A stretch of DNA of 46,804 nucleotides from Thermus igniterrae ATCC 700962 (GTDB lineage: Bacteria; Deinococcota; Deinococci; Deinococcales; Thermaceae), in contig NZ_AQWU01000058.1 of NCBI RefSeq assembly GCF_000376265.1, forward strand, positions 1 to 46,804, read 5' to 3'. This document shows positions 8,144 to 36,129 of the stretch, in pieces (within the stretch, counting starts at the first letter, position 1; every line of letters begins with the position of its first letter). The position numbers and the translations under genes were made by a program. Under the pieces are notes generated by a model. That model saw only the letters and a program-made list of their open reading frames with translations, was not told where the DNA came from and ran no database searches.

Positions 8144-9406
8144 ATGTACAAGTGGCTGGACGAACGCCTAGACCTCTCGGGCCTCTACCACAAGGTCCTG
8201 CGCAAAGCCTTTCCCGTGCACCACTCCTTCTTCCTGGGGGAGATCACCCTCTTCGCCTTCGTGGTCCTGGTGCTCACGGGGATTTTCCTCACCCTCAACT
8301 ACGAGCCTTCCATCCGCGAGGTGAAGCTCCCCGACGGGCGTACGGTGCCCGCCGCCTACGCCAGCGTCCTCTACATTGACAGCCTCCCCTTCGGGGCGGT
8401 GATCCGGAGCCTGCACCACTGGTCGGCCCACGTGATGATCGCCGCCGCCTTTTTGCACATGCTGCGGATCCTCCTCTCGGGGGCTTACAAGAAGCCCCGG
8501 GAGCTCAACTACCTGGTGGGGCTTGGGCTTCTGGGCCTGGCGGTGGTGACCGCTTTTACCGGCTATGCCCTCCCCTACGACAACTACGCGGTCACCGCCA
8601 CCCGCATCGGCTACGGCATCGCCACCTCCATCCCCTGGATCGGCGGGGCCCTGGCCGACGTGATGTTCGGCGGGGAGTTCCCGGGGTCGGCCAAGTCCAT
8701 CCCCCGGCTCTTTAGCCTCCACGTCCTCTGGCTACCCCTCCTCCTCATGGGCCTCATCGGGCTCCACCTGGCCATCATGGTGAAGCAGAAGCACACCCAG
8801 CCCCGCTACGCGGAGCGGGTGGCCCCGGGGAAGATCCTGGGCGTGCCCATGTACCCCCAGCAGATGGTGATGATGGTCATCCTCTTCGCCCTTTACGTGG
8901 GCATCATGGCCATCATCGCCGGGGCCTTCCTGGCCCACCCCATTGAGGCCTTCGGGCCCCCCACCCCCCAGACCCCCGCGGTGAAGCCCGACTGGTACTT
9001 CCTCTGGCTCTATGGCCTCCTGCAGATCATCCCCTCTACCTGGGAGTTCCACCTCTTCGGCGCCACCATCGGGCCGGAGTTCATCGGCGGGGCGGTGGTG
9101 CCGGGGATTCTGGCCATTGTGGGCCTCCTCCTGCCCTTCGTGGACACCCGCAAGGACAAGATGCGCTACATGGAGCTCCCCTCGGAGCATCCCGTGCGCA
9201 CCAGCGTGATCCTGGCCCTCCTGGTCTTCTTCCTCATGAGCTCCCTGGCGGGCTACAAGATTGACTTCCAGCAGCAGGGCTCCATCCTGGGCAACAACGC
9301 CGTCCTCTGGACCCTGGTCCTGGGGGGCCCCCTGGTCACCTACCTGGTCTCCTACACCCTCCTGCGCATCTTCTACGGCAAGAAGCCCGAAAGGGAGGCC
9401 CTCTAG
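8144..9406 (+). CDS. fbcB: Cytochrome b of the bc complex
   Basis: The 420-residue polytopic cytochrome b is the quinol-oxidising core of the complex. The first haem-ligand helix reads RSLHHWSAHVMIAAAFLHML and the second LHVLWLPLLLMGLIGLHLAIM, giving two His pairs for the low- and high-potential haems. The Qo-site motif appears as PDWY (in KPDWYFLWLYGLLQI) in place of PEWY. The length covers the N-terminal b6-like part and the C-terminal subunit-IV-like part in one chain, plus extra C-terminal helices. It is the last gene of the operon and is followed by a strong terminator. Confidence 0.96.
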   Translation: MYKWLDERLDLSGLYHKVLRKAFPVHHSFFLGEITLFAFVVLVLTGIFLTLNYEPSIREVKLPDGRTVPAAYASVLYIDSLPFGAVIRSLHHWSAHVMIAAAFLHMLRILLSGAYKKPRELNYLVGLGLLGLAVVTAFTGYALPYDNYAVTATRIGYGIATSIPWIGGALADVMFGGEFPGSAKSIPRLFSLHVLWLPLLLMGLIGLHLAIMVKQKHTQPRYAERVAPGKILGVPMYPQQMVMMVILFALYVGIMAIIAGAFLAHPIEAFGPPTPQTPAVKPDWYFLWLYGLLQIIPSTWEFHLFGATIGPEFIGGAVVPGILAIVGLLLPFVDTRKDKMRYMELPSEHPVRTSVILALLVFFLMSSLAGYKIDFQQQGSILGNNAVLWTLVLGGPLVTYLVSYTLLRIFYGKKPEREAL

Positions 9407-27249: not shown

Positions 27250-27448
27250 GGTTCTGGTCTACCTGGGGCTTTTCTTCCTGGTCCTGGGCCTCCTTCTCCT
27301 CTACTTCCCCAAGCTCTTCGCCTGGTTCGGCCACCTGCCGGGGGACATCCGCATGGAACGGGGTGGGGTGCGCATCTACATCCCCCTCACCTCCGCCCTC
27401 CTCCTCTCCCTGCTCCTCACCCTAGTCCTGAACCTCTTCCGCCGCTAG
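27236..27448 (+). CDS. DUF2905 family membrane protein
   Basis: The 70-residue protein has two membrane helices (about 6-30 and 48-68) around a hydrophilic loop GHLPGDIRMERGGVRIYIPL, the hallmark of DUF2905. No function is known. The start is inside the glucokinase gene. The end overlaps the convergent SARP-like gene by 27 bases. Confidence 0.88.
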   Translation: MELAKVLVYLGLFFLVLGLLLLYFPKLFAWFGHLPGDIRMERGGVRIYIPLTSALLLSLLLTLVLNLFRR

Positions 27449-29038
27449 GTCCCAGGCAGCCATGGCCCCCGGCTTGGGCCGGTAGGCCCGCAGGGTGAAC
27501 TCCGCTAGGCCCAGCCCCTGGAAGCCCAGGCGCAGGGGCCCGGGGTGCAGGAACCAACGGTGCCGGAACTCGCCTTCCAGGCCCAGGCGCATCCCCCCAC
27601 CCGGGGCCCGGAGGGTTAGCCCCATGCCCTGGGTGTCTTCCAGGCCGTAGGCCCTCCCGGAAAGCTCCAGCACCACCTCCTCCTCGATTTCGCTCAGGGC
27701 CAAAAGGGCCGTCTCCTCGGGCTCCAGCAGGGCCACGCCAAACCCCTCCCGCAAGGCCAGGACCCCCTCCCGCTGGTGGGGCAGGAGGACCCGCTCCGGA
27801 CCCAGTCCCAGGTGCCGCACCCCCCTTCTTCCCTCCCCCGGGGCTAGGGCCTTCCCCCAAAGGCCTCCCAGGTCTTCCCCCAAAGCCCTGCGGTGGACCG
27901 CCTCCGCTTCCAGCTTTCCCGAAAGGGCCAAGGCGGTGGCCGCCCGCTCGTGGAGCTCGTGCCGCCGCCCCGGGGGCAAGGCGGCGTAGAGAAGGCGGCG
28001 CTCCGCCTCCTTGGCGAACCGGTACCCCCCTCGGTAGAGGAGCCAGCCCTTGCGCTCCAGCTCGTCCAGGTGGGGCAGGGCTCCCAGGGCGTCCAGCACC
28101 TCCTCGGGGATGGTCCCCATGGCCACGGAAAGGCGCTCCAGGGCCAGGCGGGCGGGCTCGCTGAGGAGCCTAGCCTGCAGGCGCAACTGGGCCAAAGGCC
28201 GCTGGGGGCCTTGGGGACAGGCCAGCCACTCGGGGATCCACTCCGGCTGCCCCCCCGCCCAGAAGTAGGCCCGGGCCGCCTCAAAGAAGTCCAGGCCTGC
28301 CAGAACCCCCTCCCGGGCCTCGGGCCAGGAGAGGGGGGGCAGGTCCAGAAGCCGGGTCTGGGCCACCGGGTAGTGGGCGCGCAGCTCCAGAAAGAAGCGG
28401 GGCTCCTCCCCTGGCCCGAGGCTGAGCACCAGAAGGCTTTGGGAACGGAGCAACTCCCGCACGGGCACCTGCGGGTAGGGGGGCTCCAGGTATACGAGGC
28501 CCTGGGGGCGGAGGGTTTGGTGAAAGGTAAGCCCCAAGGTCCGGGCCAGGGCCTGGGCAAAGGCCCGTTGCCCGGACCCTAGCCGCCCCCGGAGCACCAG
28601 GAGGAAGGGGGGGCGGAGGGCGGAGAACTCTTGGAGGAGCTCCCGCCGCTCCAAAAGCCCCGGCGTGGCCTCGTGGCGCTCCCGCACCTCGGCAATCCAG
28701 TCCCAGGGCTCCTCCAGCCCCTCCAGGGCCTGGCCCTGTCCGGTGGTGTCCAGGCGGATCCAGGAGGGGAGGACCAGGGGGTCCTGCCCCTGGGGAAACA
28801 CCCGCCGCCCCAGGGCCTGGCCGAGGCGGTAGAGCTCCACCCGCAGGTTCTGCAGGCCGGTGCCGTGGGCATAGAGGAGCTCCGCCAGCCTGGCCCTGGT
28901 GGTGGGGCCCTCGAGGGCCAGGTAGTAGAGGAGGACCAGCCCCTTCTTTGAAAGCCGCACCTCCTTTCCCTGGTGAAGGAGCCGGGCCCGCCCAAAAAGG
29001 GGCAAGGCGTAAAGCGGTTCGTTAAGGGGGCGTTTCAA
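27422..29038 (-). CDS. SARP-like transcriptional regulator with degenerate ATPase domain
   Basis: The 538-residue protein starts with a SARP/OmpR-type winged helix (about 8-98): FGRARLLHQGKEVRLSKKG, ALEGPTTRARLAELLY, then LQNLRVELYRLGQALG and VLPSWIRLD. A STAND/AAA-like region follows (LLVLRGRLGSGQRAFAQAL, 147-165), where the Walker A Lys is Gln157, so nucleotide binding is doubtful. The helical middle ends in a beta-rich C-terminus (about 430-538) of unknown kind. TTG 29038 is the best start, since no ATG precedes the winged helix. It faces the surface-protein operon across 154 bp and is its probable regulator (inference). Confidence 0.75.
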   Translation of the reverse strand: MKRPLNEPLYALPLFGRARLLHQGKEVRLSKKGLVLLYYLALEGPTTRARLAELLYAHGTGLQNLRVELYRLGQALGRRVFPQGQDPLVLPSWIRLDTTGQGQALEGLEEPWDWIAEVRERHEATPGLLERRELLQEFSALRPPFLLVLRGRLGSGQRAFAQALARTLGLTFHQTLRPQGLVYLEPPYPQVPVRELLRSQSLLVLSLGPGEEPRFFLELRAHYPVAQTRLLDLPPLSWPEAREGVLAGLDFFEAARAYFWAGGQPEWIPEWLACPQGPQRPLAQLRLQARLLSEPARLALERLSVAMGTIPEEVLDALGALPHLDELERKGWLLYRGGYRFAKEAERRLLYAALPPGRRHELHERAATALALSGKLEAEAVHRRALGEDLGGLWGKALAPGEGRRGVRHLGLGPERVLLPHQREGVLALREGFGVALLEPEETALLALSEIEEEVVLELSGRAYGLEDTQGMGLTLRAPGGGMRLGLEGEFRHRWFLHPGPLRLGFQGLGLAEFTLRAYRPKPGAMAAWDLAAEEVQD

Positions 29039-29192
29039 AGCGTTACCTACCTTAACCCCAGGCTAGCACAGGCGGGGCTTCCCCGCCAGGTCAGGCTGCT
29101 TTTGGCGGTAACGGCCGTGTAACGCCCCTTTCCGTAGGGTGAGGACGTCCTGAGAGGCCACCACCTCCCGGGGCGGATTTAAAGGAGGCATT
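29020..29192. promoter_or_regulatory. Control region between the SARP-like gene and the surface operon
   Basis: GTAACG direct repeats at 29108-29113 and 29119-29124 (11-bp period, each followed by N then CC) end 10 bp before a -10 box TAGGGT at 29135-29140. They replace the -35 region, as in SARP-activated promoters. On the minus strand related hexamers lie at 29046-29041 (GTAACG), 29036-29031 (GAAACG) and 29025-29020 (TTAACG), overlapping the regulator start. A 7-bp hairpin GGCGGGG/CCCCGCC is at 29071-29087. AAAGGAGG at 29181-29188 serves ATG 29193. Confidence 0.55.
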
Positions 29193-30026
29193 ATGCGCAA
29201 AGGCATTCTGGCGGCAGTACTGGTTTTAGTCCCCCTGGCGCTGGCCCAGGCGCCCACCGTGGCCCCCACCAAGGGCAACGGCCCCGACGCCTACGCCAAG
29301 GGCACGGACTCGGCCTCGGTGAACCAGACCATTGAGCTCATCCTGCCCAAGGCCACGGCCCTGCACCTGGACGTGACCACCCTGACCTTTGACCTCACCG
29401 GCCTGGATGGGGCCACCTGGCCCAACTCTACCCCGGACTTCGGCGGGAAGATGGTCTGCGTCTATGGGCTCACGGACGAAGACGTTAAGACCCAGCTAGG
29501 TGACAACTTCTACAACCAGATCCAGACCCTGCCCCTGGGCACCAGCTACGGCGTGAGCACCTGGCCCAACATCTACATCAACGGCGGCGGCCAGGTCACC
29601 GCCTATCCGCCCATCAAGCTGGACAAGAACGGGGAGCTGGTGCCGGGAAGCAAGAACTACTTCGTCTGCTACCGCACCTTCATCCTGCAGAAGTTCTCCA
29701 ATGGGAAGCAGTGGGACCTGACCGTGACCCGCAACGACCCCCAAGGGGCCCAGAGCATCCAGCACCTCTACATCCAGGACAACCCCTGCGACACCTTTGG
29801 CGCGGCCACCGGGCTTTACGAGCTCCCCAACGGGGCCATGCTCCACCTGGTGCCCAAGAACCTGCAGGCGGGGCCCACGGGCTCCCGGTCCAAGGCGAAC
29901 CCGGCCAACTGCGGCTACAAGAGCTGGTTGGATGACCTGGTGGTGGTGGCCATCAAGGTCAACGCCGACCTCTGGGGCAAGAGCACCGCGAACCTGACCT
30001 ACACCCTGGCCACGACCGCCTGGTAG
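29193..30026 (+). CDS. Exported protein, candidate major subunit of a surface fibre
   Basis: The 277-residue protein has a signal peptide (about 1-19, ending LALAQ) and an all-beta mature part with four Cys (KMVCVYG, YFVCYRT, DNPCDTFG, ANCGYKS) that could form two disulfides. There are no catalytic motifs. The C-terminus ends in alternating hydrophobic residues (ADLWGKSTANLTYTLATTAW), as in fibre subunits that complete a neighbour. It is the first gene of the operon and is followed by a strong hairpin at 30035-30061, which would raise its relative yield. I do not recognise the family. A pilin or coat-subunit role is inference from context. Confidence 0.7.
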   Translation: MRKGILAAVLVLVPLALAQAPTVAPTKGNGPDAYAKGTDSASVNQTIELILPKATALHLDVTTLTFDLTGLDGATWPNSTPDFGGKMVCVYGLTDEDVKTQLGDNFYNQIQTLPLGTSYGVSTWPNIYINGGGQVTAYPPIKLDKNGELVPGSKNYFVCYRTFILQKFSNGKQWDLTVTRNDPQGAQSIQHLYIQDNPCDTFGAATGLYELPNGAMLHLVPKNLQAGPTGSRSKANPANCGYKSWLDDLVVVAIKVNADLWGKSTANLTYTLATTAW

Positions 30027-30034
30027 CGGACCCC

Positions 30035-30061
30035 GGGGCCTGGCCCAGGGGGCCAGGCCCC
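30035..30061 (+). terminator. Intercistronic hairpin after the first subunit gene
   Basis: GGGGCCTGGCCC (30035-30046), three-base loop, GGGCCAGGCCCC (30050-30061): a perfect 12-bp stem without a U-tract. It probably acts as an attenuator or mRNA-stabilising end, so the upstream gene is made in excess over the downstream ones. Confidence 0.6.
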
Positions 30062-30077
30062 GCCCTTATGGAGGACC

Positions 30078-30914
30078 ATGAAGCGAATCTTCCCCTTTGC
30101 CCTAGCCCTAGCCCTCAGCGCCCTGGCGCAAAGCACCCTGGGCGTGGACCCCCCGGTCCTCCTCAAGGAGGCCAAACCGGGGGAGATCCTCACCCATACC
30201 CTCCGGGTATACAACGTGGGCACCCGCACGGTACGGGTACGGGTCAGCCTGGGGGACTGGACCTACGACCCCATGGGAAAGATTCAGTTTCTCCCGGTGG
30301 GCTCTCTGAAGGAAAGCGCCAGCCCCTGGGCCACCTTTGCTCCCCCCGAGTTCCTGCTGGAGGCCAAGCAAAACCGCGCCCTCACCTACACCCTGACGGT
30401 GCCGGCAAACGCCGCCCCGGGAACCCACTGGGGCATCCTCTTCCTGGAAGCCGAGGACCCCAACCCACCTCCCGGGGTGCCCCTGGCCACCTTCCGGGTG
30501 CGCATGGCCCACGTCTTCTACGTGAACGTTCCCCCCTTGCGGACCTCAGGGCGCATCACGGGCATCGTGCCCAGCGCCCCCCAAGGCCCCCAGGACCCCT
30601 ACCGCTTTGCCGTGCAGTACCAGAACACGGGCAACACCGCCCAAAAACTGGCCGGGCGCTTTGAGGTACGGGAGGCCTCCGGGCGCAAGGTGGCCGAGGT
30701 GGAGATTGAGGAGGTGGTGGTCCTGCCCGGCCAGGTGCGCATCCTGCCCATCACCCTGGTGGGCCCCCTGCCCGCGGGCACCTACACCGCCTTGGCCATC
30801 CTCAACTACGGGGACCCCGCCAAGGACGTGGCCGCGGACCTGCCCTTCGCCCTGCGCACCGCCTTGGCCCCTCCCCCTGCCCCACCCCAGGAAAACAAAG
30901 GAGGCAGCCCATGA
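30078..30914 (+). CDS. Periplasmic chaperone-like protein with two Ig-like domains
   Basis: The 278-residue exported protein has a signal peptide (about 1-17, ending LSALAQ). The first Ig-like domain (about 20-125: VDPPVLLKEAKPGEILTHTL, RVYNVGTRTVRVRVSLGDW, SASPWATFAPPEFLLEA) follows the pattern of PapD/FimC-type chaperones. A second Ig-like domain (about 145-255: FAVQYQNTGNTAQKLAGRFEV, ILPITLVGPLPAGTYTALAI) and a Pro-rich tail follow. Its place between a subunit gene and another subunit and usher-like gene supports a chaperone role. The classical Arg/Lys pair of chaperones cannot be assigned with confidence. The stop overlaps the next start by four bases. Confidence 0.65.
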   Translation: MKRIFPFALALALSALAQSTLGVDPPVLLKEAKPGEILTHTLRVYNVGTRTVRVRVSLGDWTYDPMGKIQFLPVGSLKESASPWATFAPPEFLLEAKQNRALTYTLTVPANAAPGTHWGILFLEAEDPNPPPGVPLATFRVRMAHVFYVNVPPLRTSGRITGIVPSAPQGPQDPYRFAVQYQNTGNTAQKLAGRFEVREASGRKVAEVEIEEVVVLPGQVRILPITLVGPLPAGTYTALAILNYGDPAKDVAADLPFALRTALAPPPAPPQENKGGSP

Positions 30915-31399
30915 GAACCCTGCTGGCCGCCCTGCTCCTCTTGGCCGGCATGGCCACAGCCCAGGCCACCTGGATCGTCCAGACCCTGATCCCGGAGACC
31001 GTGGCCCTGCGCACCCCCACCACCCAGATCGCCTTTGACCTCAAGGACTACCCCCCCAAGGCCTTCCCCGCCACCTACCCTGCCAGCAACCTGGAGGGGG
31101 GAATGCTTCCGGTCCAGGTCTTTTCCAACGCCCCCGGCACCTGGAGCCTCCTCCTACAGATCCCCGACCTGCGGGACACGAACGGGGTGCTCCTCCTCCC
31201 CGCCCGCCAGGTGCTCTACCGGGTGAACGGGGGGCTTTGGTTGCGGGCCGACGGCACGCCCCAGATCGTCTACACCCAGACCGGCCCTACCGGGGACTGG
31301 CTGGAGATCCGCCTGGAGTTCGCCCTGGAACTCCTGGGCAGCGAAAAGGCCGGCAACTACGTGGTCCAGGCCCTGGTCACCGCCTTGAGGCAGCCCTGA
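30911..31399 (+). CDS. Exported protein, candidate minor subunit
   Basis: The 162-residue protein has a signal peptide (about 1-18, ending MATAQA) followed by an all-beta domain: TWIVQTLIPETVALRTPTTQ, LPVQVFSNAPGTWSLLLQIP, RVNGGLWLRADGTPQIV, DWLEIRLEFALELLGSEKAG and a final NYVVQALVTALRQP. The layout resembles small pilin-like beta-sandwich subunits. It lacks Cys pairs. It is coupled to the chaperone-like gene by ATGA and lies one base before the usher-like gene. No family is recognised. Confidence 0.65.
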   Translation: MRTLLAALLLLAGMATAQATWIVQTLIPETVALRTPTTQIAFDLKDYPPKAFPATYPASNLEGGMLPVQVFSNAPGTWSLLLQIPDLRDTNGVLLLPARQVLYRVNGGLWLRADGTPQIVYTQTGPTGDWLEIRLEFALELLGSEKAGNYVVQALVTALRQP

Positions 31400-31400
31400 G

Positions 31401-34400
31401 ATGCGGCGTCTGCTGAGCCTCCTCCTCCTCCTCGGCCTGGCCTTGGCCCAGGTGCGCTTTCTCCCCTCGGCGCCCCTTTCCGGGGTCCCCGGAGAGTACC
31501 TCACCCTGAGCGTGAGGGTGGAAGGGAAGGGCTCGGTACGCTTCCGCATAGAACCGCCTGAGGGGTGGCAGGCCCTCTCCCAGGAGCGCGTGGCCCTGCT
31601 GGAGGACAAAACGGAAACCCTGAGCTTCACCCTACGGGTCCCCACCCTGCCCGCAGGCACCCGGGGCAAGGCCCGGGTTCTGGCCTACCTGGGGGCCGAG
31701 GAAGCCGCCCGAACCGAGGTGGAGCTTGAGGTGCTACCCCTGACCCAGATCGCCCTTTCCGCCCCGGCCACCCTCGAGGCCAGCCTGGGCGGGCCCTTTG
31801 AGTTTCCCGTGTACGTGAGCAACCGCTCCAACCAGAAGGAGGAGATTCTGCTGGAGGCCGAGGCCGCCATGTTCCAGGTCTTCCTGAACCCCCCAGGGCT
31901 CAGCCTGGCCCCCGGGGAGACAGGGGTGGTACGGGTCCTGGTCAGCCCCCAGGGGCAGATCTCCGCCGGCTACCGCTTCTACATGCGGCTGCGGGCCACC
32001 CCCAGGGGGCAGCCGGAGGCCCGGAAGGAGGCTGGGGTCATCGTCCTCTTCCAAGACCCCCTGCTCCAAGGGGGCCGCGGCAAGGACCCCGCGCTCACCC
32101 TGGGGCTGAACCTGGCCCTCACCCTGGGGGCCACCCTGGAACGGGGACAGCTCAGCGGCCAGGTGGGCTACACCCTGCTCCCCAGCCTGAGCGGGGCCTT
32201 ATCGGACTACGTGACGGCCACCGCCACCCCAGGCCCCTTGGCCGGGGACCTGCAAACCCCCTGGCGCCCCCCCCAGACCTTTACCCTTGGCCTCAAGGGA
32301 GATGGCTGGGAAGCCCGGGCCCAGGGCGGGCAGGGGGGCTACAGCCTGGCGGGCACCTTCCGCCTGGGGGAGGCCCGGATGGGGCTGGAAGGGACTTACC
32401 GCCCTCAGGCCCTGGGGTTTAAAACCTCCGCGGTAAGCCTGGACCGGAACCTGGACCTGCAGGGGGCCCTCAGCACCCAGACCACGCCCGCGGGCCGCCA
32501 GGACGCCCTGAGCCTGCGCTACCGGCTTCCCCTGGAGGCGGGCCTCACCCTAGGCCTGGGCACCGACCTCACCGGGCAGGCGGGGGAGGGGTACAGCCTG
32601 GCCTTCGGCCTCAGCCAAAGCCTCACCTGGCAGACCCAGGACCTGGACCTGGTGCAAAGCTATAGCGGCCTTCCCCTGGCCGGCCTCCACACCCTGGGTT
32701 TGGCCGGCGGGACCCGTTCCCTCTACCCCTTGGGGCTTCGGGGCAACACCAGCCTCCAGCTGGGCACCGGGCCCGGGCTTTGGCAGAACCAGCTCACCCT
32801 CTACCTCCAGCCGGTGGCAGGGGCCTTCTTGAGCCTCACGGGTAGCTACCGCCAGCAGGGGGAGAACCGGGGGTTTGGCCTGGCCCCGGGCCTGAGCGCT
32901 CACTTTGGCGAGCCCGGGAGCTACTCGGGCAGCCTAAGCCTGGGGTACGGGGTCCAGCGGCCCCTTACGGGATCCGCTCCCACCGGCGAGGCCTACTCGG
33001 GAGGCCTGGTGCTGGGAACCCGTGACCTCAGCCTCTCGGGGTTTTTCCGCTACCTGTCGCAAGAAAACCCCCTCCTGGAGGGAAGCCTCATCCTCCGCTT
33101 CGCCCTGGCGGGGGGGAGCCTCGAGGGCCAGTACCTGGTCAAGCAGACCCCGGAGCAGAACCTCACCCTCTACGGCGCCGCCTGGAACCAGCTCTGGCCA
33201 GGAAGCCTGCAAAGCCGCCTCTCCTACGAGTACCGGCTGGAGCAAAACCCCAGCCAGCGCTTCGGCCTCAGCCTCTTTCAGCGGAACTTCCTGGAGCCGG
33301 GTCTGGCCCTGGGGGCCTCCTACACCCTCATCCTCCAGGGGGGAGAGACCCGCCACAACTTCGGCCTCAGCCTGGCCTACGCCCAGACCCTCACCTTTCC
33401 CACCCCCAAGGAGGTGGTGGACCTCTTTGGGGGGCGCAAGGGGGGTGAGGTGGTGGGCCGGGCCTTCCGCGACCCCAACCTGAACGGACGCCTGGACCCC
33501 GGGGAGGAGCCCCTGCCGGGCCTTCGGGTATGTCTGGGCTCGGTCTGTGAGAGCACGGACGCCGAGGGGCGCTACCGCCTCCTGGCCCCCCCGGGGGAAG
33601 GGGTCCTCCTCTTCGGCAACCTCCCCGCCACCCTGGCCCTGGTGGGGGCGGAGCGGGTCCAGGTGGTCCTAAACGGCCGGCTGGAGAAGGACCTCCCCTT
33701 CGCCCCCGCCACCACCCTGGCGGTTCAGGTGCTGGAAGATGGGGGGGAAAAGGGCCTGGCCTTCGCCGGGGTCTGCGCCAGCGGGCCCGTGACCCGGTGC
33801 ACCCGGGCGGATGTTAATGGCCGCGCCCTCCTGGGGGGTCTCTTCCTGGGGGCCTACCAGGTCTACCCCGACCCCCAGTACCTGCCGGAGGGCTACCGCG
33901 GGGAAAAAAGCCTCCAGGTGCAGGTGGACCCCAGCACCCCCCCGAAGGAGGTCCAGGTGGTGGTCAGCCCCCCTAGGCGAGCGGTGGAGGTCACCTACAC
34001 CGCAGAACGCCTCAGCCTGGTAGCCACCGCCGACCCCAGCACCCCCATCGCCGGGGCGGAGGTGGAGGTCAGGGCCCTCCTGCAAGGGGAAGCCCAAGCG
34101 GTCTGGCTGGAGTTGCCCTCGGCCCGGGTGCCCCTGTTGCCCCAGGGGGGGAACCTGTACGCCGCCCGGGTGCGCCTGCCCTTGGGGCCAGGGTTCCACA
34201 CCCTACAGGTGCGGGCCCAGGGGCAGGAGGAGGTGGCAACCCCCCTCTTCCTCCAGGTGGTGCCGGGGACCCTCTACAGCCCCCGGGCCCTGGAAGGACC
34301 CAAGATCCGCCTGGTCCTCCGCTTCCGGGCCAGCCAGGTGACCCTGGGAGGCGGCGGGCAGAGCTTCGCCCTGAAGAGCGAGGACGGCTACACCTGGGCC

Positions 34401-34508
34401 GGGGAAGTTCCCCTGAACCCCGGCCAGTACACCCTGTGGGTGCTGGCCGACGGGGAGACGCTGGGGGCGGTGGACCTCAGCATCCCCTCGGAAAGCGCAG
34501 GTCACTAA
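31401..34508 (+). CDS. Large outer-membrane usher-like beta-barrel protein
   Basis: The 1035-residue protein has a signal peptide (about 1-16) and two N-terminal Ig/NEW3-like domains (about 18-215: GVPGEYLTLSVRVEGKGSVR, FEFPVYVSNRSNQKEEI). A long amphipathic beta region (about 227-668) alternates Gly, aromatic and polar residues as in a porin or usher barrel. Then come a CnaB/SdrD-like domain (about 678-745: FRDPNLNGRLDPGEEPLPGL, STDAEGRYRL) and two or three more beta-sandwich domains. The length and order suggest an usher-like pore, but the classical PapC motifs are not visible. It is the largest gene of the operon and follows both subunit genes. Confidence 0.6.
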   Translation: MRRLLSLLLLLGLALAQVRFLPSAPLSGVPGEYLTLSVRVEGKGSVRFRIEPPEGWQALSQERVALLEDKTETLSFTLRVPTLPAGTRGKARVLAYLGAEEAARTEVELEVLPLTQIALSAPATLEASLGGPFEFPVYVSNRSNQKEEILLEAEAAMFQVFLNPPGLSLAPGETGVVRVLVSPQGQISAGYRFYMRLRATPRGQPEARKEAGVIVLFQDPLLQGGRGKDPALTLGLNLALTLGATLERGQLSGQVGYTLLPSLSGALSDYVTATATPGPLAGDLQTPWRPPQTFTLGLKGDGWEARAQGGQGGYSLAGTFRLGEARMGLEGTYRPQALGFKTSAVSLDRNLDLQGALSTQTTPAGRQDALSLRYRLPLEAGLTLGLGTDLTGQAGEGYSLAFGLSQSLTWQTQDLDLVQSYSGLPLAGLHTLGLAGGTRSLYPLGLRGNTSLQLGTGPGLWQNQLTLYLQPVAGAFLSLTGSYRQQGENRGFGLAPGLSAHFGEPGSYSGSLSLGYGVQRPLTGSAPTGEAYSGGLVLGTRDLSLSGFFRYLSQENPLLEGSLILRFALAGGSLEGQYLVKQTPEQNLTLYGAAWNQLWPGSLQSRLSYEYRLEQNPSQRFGLSLFQRNFLEPGLALGASYTLILQGGETRHNFGLSLAYAQTLTFPTPKEVVDLFGGRKGGEVVGRAFRDPNLNGRLDPGEEPLPGLRVCLGSVCESTDAEGRYRLLAPPGEGVLLFGNLPATLALVGAERVQVVLNGRLEKDLPFAPATTLAVQVLEDGGEKGLAFAGVCASGPVTRCTRADVNGRALLGGLFLGAYQVYPDPQYLPEGYRGEKSLQVQVDPSTPPKEVQVVVSPPRRAVEVTYTAERLSLVATADPSTPIAGAEVEVRALLQGEAQAVWLELPSARVPLLPQGGNLYAARVRLPLGPGFHTLQVRAQGQEEVATPLFLQVVPGTLYSPRALEGPKIRLVLRFRASQVTLGGGGQSFALKSEDGYTWAGEVPLNPGQYTLWVLADGETLGAVDLSIPSESAGH

Positions 34509-34532
34509 GGATTCGGGAAGGAGGTATTCGGT

Positions 34533-35699
34533 ATGCGGCATTGGAAGAGCATTTTTCTTGTGGTGGGGCTTCTGGCGGCTTGTTCCCAGAGCCCGCAAGG
34601 GGTCACCCCCCAGGTGGTGGTCACCCCGGAGCCCTCGGTGGCGGTGGAGAAGACCGCGGTACCCAAGTTCAAGCGGGTCTACCACTGGACCATCCAGAAG
34701 GAGGTCACCGATCCGGCCAGCCAGCCCCTCACCCTCTCCGCCGGCCAGTCCTACACGGTGAAGTACAAGGTCAGCCTGGTGGGCACCCCCAAAGACCAGG
34801 ACTTCCAGGTAGAGGGCACCGTGGTCATCAAGAACACGGGTGCAGGCGCCGTGGTCCTCCAGGCCCCCACGGACACCCTTTCCACCGGGGAGAACGTGGC
34901 CCTGAGCTGCGGGGTGAGCTTCCCCTACACCCTGCCCGAGGGAGGGAGCCTGAGCTGTACCTACAGCCAGGCCCTGCCCAACGGCCAGAGCCGGACCAAC
35001 ACCGCCTCCGTGAGCTGGAGCGCAGGGGACAAAAGCGGCACCGCCTCCGGCCAGGCCAGCTTCAGCTTCACCACCCCCACCGAGGTGGTGGACGGAAGCG
35101 TGACCGTGGCCGACCCCTCGGCCACCCTGGTCAGCGCCATCAGCAGCATCAACCCCCAGGGGGTGATCTCCCAGGCCTATTTCTTTGAGCGGACGGTGCG
35201 CTTTGACGCCTGCGGGGACTACGAGGTGCAAAACACCGCCACCTTCACCACCAACACCACCGGCACCCAGGGGAGCGCCTCGGCCTCCCTCCAGGTGCGG
35301 GTACCCTGCGCAGGCGGGTGCACCCTGACCCAGGGCTACTGGAAGACCCACTCCAGGTACGGCCCGGCCCCCTACGACGACACCTGGGCCCTGATCGGGG
35401 AGGATACCGCCTTCTACCTCTCGGGCCAGACCTACTACCAGGTGCTCTGGACCCCGCCCGCAGGGGGGAACGCCTACTACATCCTGGCCCACCAGTTCAT
35501 CGCCGCCAGGCTGAACAAGCTGAACGGGGCCAGCACCACCTCTGCCGTGGACACCGCCATGAACTGGGCCCACACCTTCTTCAGCACCTATACCCCGGGC
35601 AACGTGCCCAAGGCCCAGGCCAGCCTGGCCAAGGCCTACGCTGCTACCCTGGACAGCTACAACAACGGCCTCATCGGCCCTGGCCACTGCTCAGAGTAA
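34533..35699 (+). CDS. Surface lipoprotein with GYWKTH-type domain
   Basis: The 388-residue protein has a lipoprotein signal (VVGLLAAC, Cys 17), a Pro-rich linker, Ig/DUF11-like beta domains (about 45-255) with several Cys, and a C-terminal CTLTQGYWKTHS domain (about 262-385) of a kind found at the ends of secreted surface proteins. It probably sits on the outer surface as tip, adhesin or anchor. AAGGAGGT at 34518-34525 is a strong Shine-Dalgarno. It is the fifth gene of the operon, 24 bases after the usher-like gene. Confidence 0.75.
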   Translation: MRHWKSIFLVVGLLAACSQSPQGVTPQVVVTPEPSVAVEKTAVPKFKRVYHWTIQKEVTDPASQPLTLSAGQSYTVKYKVSLVGTPKDQDFQVEGTVVIKNTGAGAVVLQAPTDTLSTGENVALSCGVSFPYTLPEGGSLSCTYSQALPNGQSRTNTASVSWSAGDKSGTASGQASFSFTTPTEVVDGSVTVADPSATLVSAISSINPQGVISQAYFFERTVRFDACGDYEVQNTATFTTNTTGTQGSASASLQVRVPCAGGCTLTQGYWKTHSRYGPAPYDDTWALIGEDTAFYLSGQTYYQVLWTPPAGGNAYYILAHQFIAARLNKLNGASTTSAVDTAMNWAHTFFSTYTPGNVPKAQASLAKAYAATLDSYNNGLIGPGHCSE

Positions 35700-35709
35700 G
35701 GAGGTAAGC

Positions 35710-36129
35710 GTGAGGCAAACCCTTTGGCTCCTCCTGCTGGTCCTTGCCGCCTGCACCGCCCCCCAGGGCATCAGGACCACGGGGAAGCTGCGCATCCAGT
35801 CGGTCCAGCCGGATGTGGTGGCGGGGTGCGTGGTGCGGGCCGGGGACTGGATGGCCCTCAAGGGCAACACCTTTGGCACCCAGGAGGCATGGGACAGCGG
35901 GGTGAACTACGCCCTCTTTCCCCCTGAGCTCCCTGCCGAGGCGCCGGAGATCACCCAGGCCCAGGATCCCGCCACCCTGATGTTCCGGGTGCCCCAAGGG
36001 GCGGAAAGCGGTATCCTCCGCCTCCACGTGGAGGGCGTGGGGGATGCGGAAATCCCGGTGAGGGTGCAGGGGATGGCGCCGCAGATGGCCATTCCCCAGT
36101 GTGAGGTACCCACCCCTCCCCCTGAGTGA
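35710..36129 (+). CDS. Small lipoprotein with IPT/TIG-like domain
   Basis: The 139-residue lipoprotein starts at GTG 35710, preceded by AAGGAGGT (35698-35705). It has the lipobox LVLAAC (Cys 15). The mature part reads LRIQSVQPDVVAGCVVRAGD, then WMALKGNTFG and the ending IPVRVQGMAPQM, which resembles an IPT/TIG immunoglobulin-like domain with extra Cys. It is the last gene of the surface operon and may be an anchor or accessory protein. A strong convergent terminator follows. Confidence 0.72.
   Translation: MRQTLWLLLLVLAACTAPQGIRTTGKLRIQSVQPDVVAGCVVRAGDWMALKGNTFGTQEAWDSGVNYALFPPELPAEAPEITQAQDPATLMFRVPQGAESGILRLHVEGVGDAEIPVRVQGMAPQMAIPQCEVPTPPPE

Follow-up and report, generated by a model that had tools for sequence, protein, structure and literature searches.

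We analysed a 46,804-nucleotide (nt) window of the Thermus igniterrae ATCC 700962 genome (contig NZ_AQWU01000058.1), in which a first-pass annotation had proposed a six-gene chaperone-usher-like surface system at positions 29193–36129. The six open reading frames (ORFs), here called A to F (277, 278, 162, 1035, 388 and 139 amino acids, aa), all lie where that annotation had placed them and are tightly packed, with spacings from A to F of +51, −4 (an ATGA overlap), +1, +24 and +10 nt. Each product bears the export signal claimed for it: read by eye, A to D carry Sec signal peptides with cleavage sites of the ALAQ/ATAQ type, and E and F carry lipoboxes (LAAC). A divergent gene for a regulator, R, and a candidate operator lie upstream, so that the features of the locus are as follows.

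27422..29038, − strand: R, divergent regulator, with a putative N-terminal winged-helix (SARP/OmpR-like) part and a large C-terminal region, from synteny and weak Pfam matches
29108..29124, + strand: candidate operator GTAACG-N5-GTAACG, a direct repeat with an 11-bp period, 85 bp upstream of A
29193..30026, + strand: A, subunit-like secreted protein, 277 aa, with four invariant cysteines and a C-terminal ANLTYTL strand
30078..30914, + strand: B, two-immunoglobulin (Ig) periplasmic chaperone-like protein, 278 aa, from profile matches and an AlphaFold2 (AF2) fold
30435..30530, + strand: predicted F1-G1 hairpin of B, with the G1-like strand ATFRVRMAHVFYVNV (residues 137–151) as the proposed donor strand
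30911..31399, + strand: C, small subunit-like secreted protein, 162 aa, found between B and D in operon types I and II
31401..34508, + strand: D, usher-like predicted outer-membrane barrel protein, 1035 aa, from an AF2 model and structure searches
31449..32087, + strand: N-terminal periplasmic-type domains of D, predicted as two Ig-like (NEW3/CARDB-like) sandwiches, with an AF2 predicted local distance difference test (pLDDT) score of ~80 and Pfam NPCBM_assoc in family members
32088..33401, + strand: predicted barrel region of D, precursor residues 230–667, ~24–26 predicted strands, low-confidence AF2 (pLDDT 30–90)
33402..34505, + strand: C-terminal domains of D, two CnaB/SdrD-B-like plus Ig-like domains
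34533..35699, + strand: E, lipoprotein, 388 aa, with a C-terminal TQGYWKTH-type domain, in Thermus-type loci only
35710..36129, + strand: F, lipoprotein, 139 aa, IPT/TIG-like by eye, conserved beyond Thermus

These are not chance ORFs, as their order is kept across Thermus: R and A to F occur in the same arrangement in 12 other genomes of the genus and in one genome of a sister genus, with orthologues ~70–90% identical. Because the divergent regulator travels with A to F, the unit really comprises seven genes and not six. Its core is A-B-C-D, which recurs at 27–60% identity in other Deinococcota families, including on three Deinococcus plasmids; these non-Thermus loci usually have R and often F, and lack E. 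The latter occurs only in Thermus and the sister genus, apart from a distant relative on the opposite strand in Deinococcus NW-56, and F is also kept in Marinithermaceae-like and Trueperaceae-like loci. Across the 111 genomes sampled, all from Deinococcota, a whole-genome profile search placed the B family (E ≤ 1e-20) in 56, and D matches were found in 42, some of them through CnaB domains alone. A narrower contig search with D as query returned four Thermus loci and one Deinococcota metagenome-assembled genome and nothing else, plasmid searches gave matches from Deinococcus only, and the viral contigs searched held no relatives.

By sequence profile, B is a two-Ig protein related both to non-classical pilus chaperones and to WxLIP. 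A 15-protein B profile run against PDB had Enterococcus faecium WxLIP (9i25, 9i1y) as its top match (2.9e-5), and a 25-protein profile matched WxLIP over both Ig domains (1.5e-10), with EcpB the sole pilus chaperone listed (E 0.1). Profile–profile comparison (hhalign) gave 2e-10 for B against WxLIP and 4e-9 against an archaic chaperone, and the whole-genome search with the B profile found the PF00345 chaperone of an archaic operon in one Deinococcota genome (G029) at E 1.7e-7. When signal-trimmed proteins were tested against 146 control ORFs, the best four were three WxLIPs and E. coli EcpB, with the fifth at 0.0065; EcpB was also the E. coli protein best recognised by the B profile (E 1.3e-5). 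In the same profile test WxLIP and the pilus chaperones did not detect each other, and B is therefore the bridge between them. The WxLIP family PF06030 scored 15.3 bits on B against a gathering score of 27.3, with weak matches in 13 of the 25 members, and PF00345 was absent among the families listed at E ≤ 1 for B proteins (25 of 32 families shown), in keeping with the earlier remark that B lacks a classical PapD signature.

Structure prediction supports a fold like that of WxLIP, CsuC and FimC. The AF2 model of B (pLDDT 78.7) has two Ig domains; its best Foldseek match was WxLIP, followed by CsuC, CfaA and FimC, with a number of other Ig proteins also ranked. With VIA, WxLIP reached Z 13.6 over 232 residues, and FimC, Caf1M and YadV Z ~12 over ~185 residues; single Ig domains of glycosidases scored similarly, but covered one domain only. 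Profile links and predicted fold together uphold the description of B as a two-Ig chaperone-like protein. As to its nearest relative, the link to chaperones stands, and the closest solved structure is WxLIP and not PapD.

The F1-G1 hairpin of B (residues ~120–149), a low-pLDDT part of the model, holds the conserved run ATFRVRMAHVFYVN and the conserved residues R142, H145, Y148 and V149, and can be aligned both with ATASARIGTILVV of EcpB and with the equivalent WxLIP hairpin. Given this alignment, and because G1 is the strand that PapD-type chaperones donate (PMC4654587), we propose that the G1-like strand of B may be donated in the same way. The WxLIP hairpin is itself predicted by AF2 to complete the sandwich of the WxL domain (PMC10599100). 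All B sequences aligned lack a C-terminal transmembrane helix and the NQIDKxxxYFDLK motif. A B-family protein on a Deinococcus deserti plasmid (L121:5899-6669) is annotated as ‘FimB/Mfa2 family fimbrial subunit’; it is probably a mislabelled chaperone-like protein, as its profile matches B.

The pairing of B with D is strict, and the subunit-like genes around the pair vary. Each of the 49 B genes examined, among them those of eight loci reached through B alone, is followed immediately by a D-family ORF in the same orientation, and in D. deserti (L121) and one further locus (L132) the two genes are directly adjacent. The same genome carries a second operon (contig C61, L079) of the form R / A-A-A-B-C-D, with three A-type subunit genes; in some loci (L071, L100) B and C are separated by an extra A-type gene, and a third subtype (L131, L133, L134) consists of a C-like gene, B, a small gene and a D of ~810 aa. 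This multiplication, with two or three A-type genes in paralogous operons, speaks for the chaperone-usher-like interpretation made at first pass. The D proteins of all subtypes are mutually homologous (hhalign E 1e-94 to 2e-26). In the second operon the regulator gene (L079:13162-14826) is split into frames of 154 and 380 aa and is intact in related genomes.

For D, an AF2 model built from six sequences (pLDDT 65, predicted template modelling score 0.35) shows a strand-rich region of ~437 residues with 24–26 credible strands, between N- and C-terminal beta-sandwich domains. D is thus predicted, at low confidence, to be an outer-membrane barrel of 24–26 strands, and the modelled span agrees with residues 227–668, guessed earlier from the sequence. 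The appended Ig/CnaB-like domains were likewise recovered, since Ig-like domains appear in the model and the C-terminal domains match SdrD B domains at E 6e-21, with SdrD_B found in 13/13 members. Among barrels, the highest Foldseek ranks went to FimD and PapC (2e-13 to 1e-10), with one ciliary Ig-repeat chain outscoring the ushers, and the profile of the barrel region weakly resembles VDAC barrels (E 0.0017). The first C-terminal domain also weakly resembles the C-terminal domain of EcpC (E 2e-4), in a prealbumin-like fold that is common, and CooC_C was matched weakly by one D of type III (E 0.0021). The usher family PF00577 was found in none of the 111 genomes and was not among the families listed for D proteins, which agrees with the earlier statement that D bears no PapC signature.

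Two side observations concern D. In locus L064 (genome G008) its gene is split at 8586-8595 into two frames, of 865 and 175 aa, with a 10-nt overlap; the rest of the operon is intact, and the break reflects either a frameshift or a sequencing error. A Thermus family of surface proteins of ~890 aa (L126:3958-6654, L127, L128, L129), with a TPAG-VI-NQA start and an SdrD-like domain, matches D mainly via that domain; its members sometimes occur as tandem pairs and mostly have no B neighbour.

A and C matched no known Pfam or PDB family, and their profile comparison with pilins was not significant, in a test in which the positive controls failed as well. The two have in common an N-terminal strand motif of the type V-x-Q-x-(V/I)-x-L-(I/L)-P...A-L...L-x-F-D-L (hhalign 7e-8, the aligned stretch including the signal peptide), and both end in a C-terminal strand-like LTYTL or FTL segment. 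These features are consistent with A and C sharing one fold used for polymerisation. We also tried A and C as WxL domains and rejected this, as hhalign against a WxL alignment gave E 0.28 and 0.07 and Pfam WxL was unmatched. E and F matched no Pfam family.

R is syntenic with the operon at most loci. The R of this window matches neither BTAD nor Trans_reg_C in Pfam; one R orthologue has a weak Trans_reg_C match (E 0.0096), and a regulator near a Deinococcus locus matches both families. On the strength of the weak match in that one orthologue, R may be a SARP-like winged-helix regulator. The repeat GTAACG-N5-GTAACG is kept in ~12 of 17 type I upstream regions, and the 11-bp period, typical of SARP sites (PMC4393881), is strongly over-represented there (100 against a median of ~11 at other spacings). 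The window has one copy of the repeat and its shuffled versions have none; the 2.2-Mb genome has three copies, and the backwards control has no match there. In most type II operons the repeat is another one, CTTAACG-N4-CTTAACG, again with an 11-bp period. Another genomic copy of the GTAACG repeat (L144:5051-6378) lies just upstream of a gene for a 417-aa lipoprotein, and the third (L143:4937-7567) is flanked by a MalT-like regulator gene on one side and a divergent block of genes on the other; both may be further targets of R-type regulators. The 417-aa lipoprotein was considered as a relative of E and dismissed, their likeness being limited to the lipobox region.

We consider it likely that A to F make up a divergent chaperone-usher-like assembly pathway. 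Strand donation, passage through D, polymerisation and regulation are inferred: A and C would be subunits exported by Sec, and B their periplasmic chaperone, whose F1-G1 hairpin probably lends a strand to the incomplete sandwich of a subunit. Complexes of B and subunit would then bind to the barrel D at its periplasmic Ig and CnaB domains, and the subunits would pass through D in polymerised form, as the following subunit's N-terminal strand takes the place of the strand lent by B. F, and in Thermus also E, would be outer-membrane lipoproteins, probably stabilising or decorating the base, and the 11-bp direct repeat is probably the site at which R binds to control the operon. The notion of a divergent or new surface-fibre system thus gains from gene order, conservation and the relatives of B, and falls short at D, whose identity as an usher is not established.

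Several results weigh against this interpretation. No single B protein reaches the family cut-off of PapD_N or WxLIP, and A and C match no pilin family (Fimbrial, SCPU). The model of D is poor by its scores and by the number of sequences behind it, and holds no plug-sized insert in the barrel; where the first-pass annotation had recommended looking for a 24-strand barrel with a plug, the model offers 24–26 predicted strands at low confidence. VIA does not set the ushers apart from TonB receptors, MtrB and LptD (tied at Z ~16–19), and in type III D proteins the barrel region, as judged from domain positions, spans only ~300 residues, which would not accommodate 24 strands of ordinary length. 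Sequence similarity between D and ushers was detected neither with Pfam nor by profile–profile comparison, where the direct comparison was not significant and known usher pairs failed the same test too. The missing match is weak evidence, because these methods miss known usher pairs and also the protein that occupies the usher position in a genuine archaic operon. That operon, in G029 (L136:805-4191), encodes an SCPU protein, a PapD_N chaperone (PF00345, 4.5e-14), a 735-aa protein in the usher position that has no PF00577 or NCBIfam match, and a second SCPU protein; G029 is the only one of the 111 genomes in which an archaic pilin (PF05229, SCPU) is recognisable. What survives of the proposal that D is an usher is a large predicted barrel between periplasmic-type domains, and homology to ushers is not established.

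A stronger form of the favoured reading holds that D, A and C are true usher and pilin homologues beyond sequence detection, in a divergent non-classical branch of the chaperone-usher pathway. The relation of B to archaic and alternative chaperones argues for it, as do the first rank of ushers among barrels in Foldseek, the EcpC and CooC_C resemblances of D, the archaic usher-position protein that also misses PF00577, and the failure of known ushers to find each other with equally small profiles. We hold it only tentatively, since no significant direct match between D and ushers or between subunits and pilins was obtained anywhere and the likeness to EcpC rests on a common prealbumin-like fold. 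A rival view, of a static WxL-like surface complex in which B is a WxLIP-like stabiliser that stays bound to A or C on the peptidoglycan or outer membrane and D is an adhesin or anchor barrel, with neither polymerisation nor secretion through D, draws on WxLIP being the closest solved relative of B, on the similar order of WxL clusters, where a small WxL gene lies directly upstream of WxLIP, and on the frequency of CnaB domains in adhesins. It seems unlikely to us, as neither A nor C matches WxL domains, B has neither the helix nor the motif of WxLIP and is also related to PapD-type chaperones, and each B comes with a large D barrel, of which WxL clusters have no counterpart.

Less probable still is a reading in which D is a barrel of the TonB, porin or lipid-transport kind, the other surface proteins are accessories to it, and the B-like proteins are generic Ig proteins. 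The level standing of TonB receptors with ushers in VIA, with MtrB and LptD close, and the weak VDAC matches would suit such a barrel, but the N-terminus of D consists of two predicted Ig domains and no TonB plug domain, B is specifically related to donor-strand chaperones, and the strict pairing of B and D among multiplied subunits has no place in it. The favoured reading, a chaperone-usher-like assembly pathway, can also be extended into a more speculative proposal, to which we give rather less than an even chance: that WxLIP and the pilus chaperones descend from one strand-donating two-Ig ancestor, with B as the missing link between them and A-B-C-D as a fourth chaperone-usher branch with barrel and subunit families of its own.

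If the favoured reading is true, it adds a new chaperone-usher branch in a phylum with an unusual envelope and explains a frequent set of ‘hypothetical’ surface genes of Thermus and Deinococcus. Surveys by PF00577 may undercount ushers, as the 735-aa protein of G029 suggests. WxLIP and PapD-type chaperones are joined by sequence through B, a link of which no earlier report was found in the literature searched; the paper on WxLIP mentions neither chaperones nor fimbriae (PMC10599100). The origin of donor-strand chaperones would become testable in thermostable proteins, which should crystallise well.

The system cannot be filed under any known chaperone-usher family, because PF00345, PF00577 and the pilin families all went unmatched, nor under the WxL clusters, because the WxL partner, the transmembrane helix and the NQIDK motif are absent. 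WxLIP (DUF916, PF06030, plus DUF3324; the Enterococcus structures named above) aligns with B over both Ig domains and is its best full-length structural match. In Gram-positive bacteria it partners WxL domains, whereas the partners of B are not WxL domains; it has the C-terminal helix and motif, B has neither and stays below the Pfam cut-off, and WxL clusters, unlike A-B-C-D, are without an outer-membrane barrel. From the alternative (alpha) pathway, exemplified by E. coli Ecp, EcpB is recognised by the B profile and the C-terminal domain of EcpC weakly resembles the first of D, but no other homology is detectable and the subunits differ. With the FimD and PapC ushers D has in common, by a low-confidence prediction, a large barrel flanked by periplasmic sandwich domains, although it has neither sequence similarity to them nor a plug insert. 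In comparison with the archaic (sigma) pathway, for example Csu, the Deinococcota system has no SCPU subunits and matches neither PF00345 nor PF00577, and D adds Ig and CnaB domains and has no obvious plug; yet the order of subunit, chaperone and large outer-membrane protein is alike, and B is predicted to fold like CsuC. Chaperone-usher operons likewise multiply their subunits around a fixed chaperone–barrel pair, as the paralogous operons of Deinococcota do.

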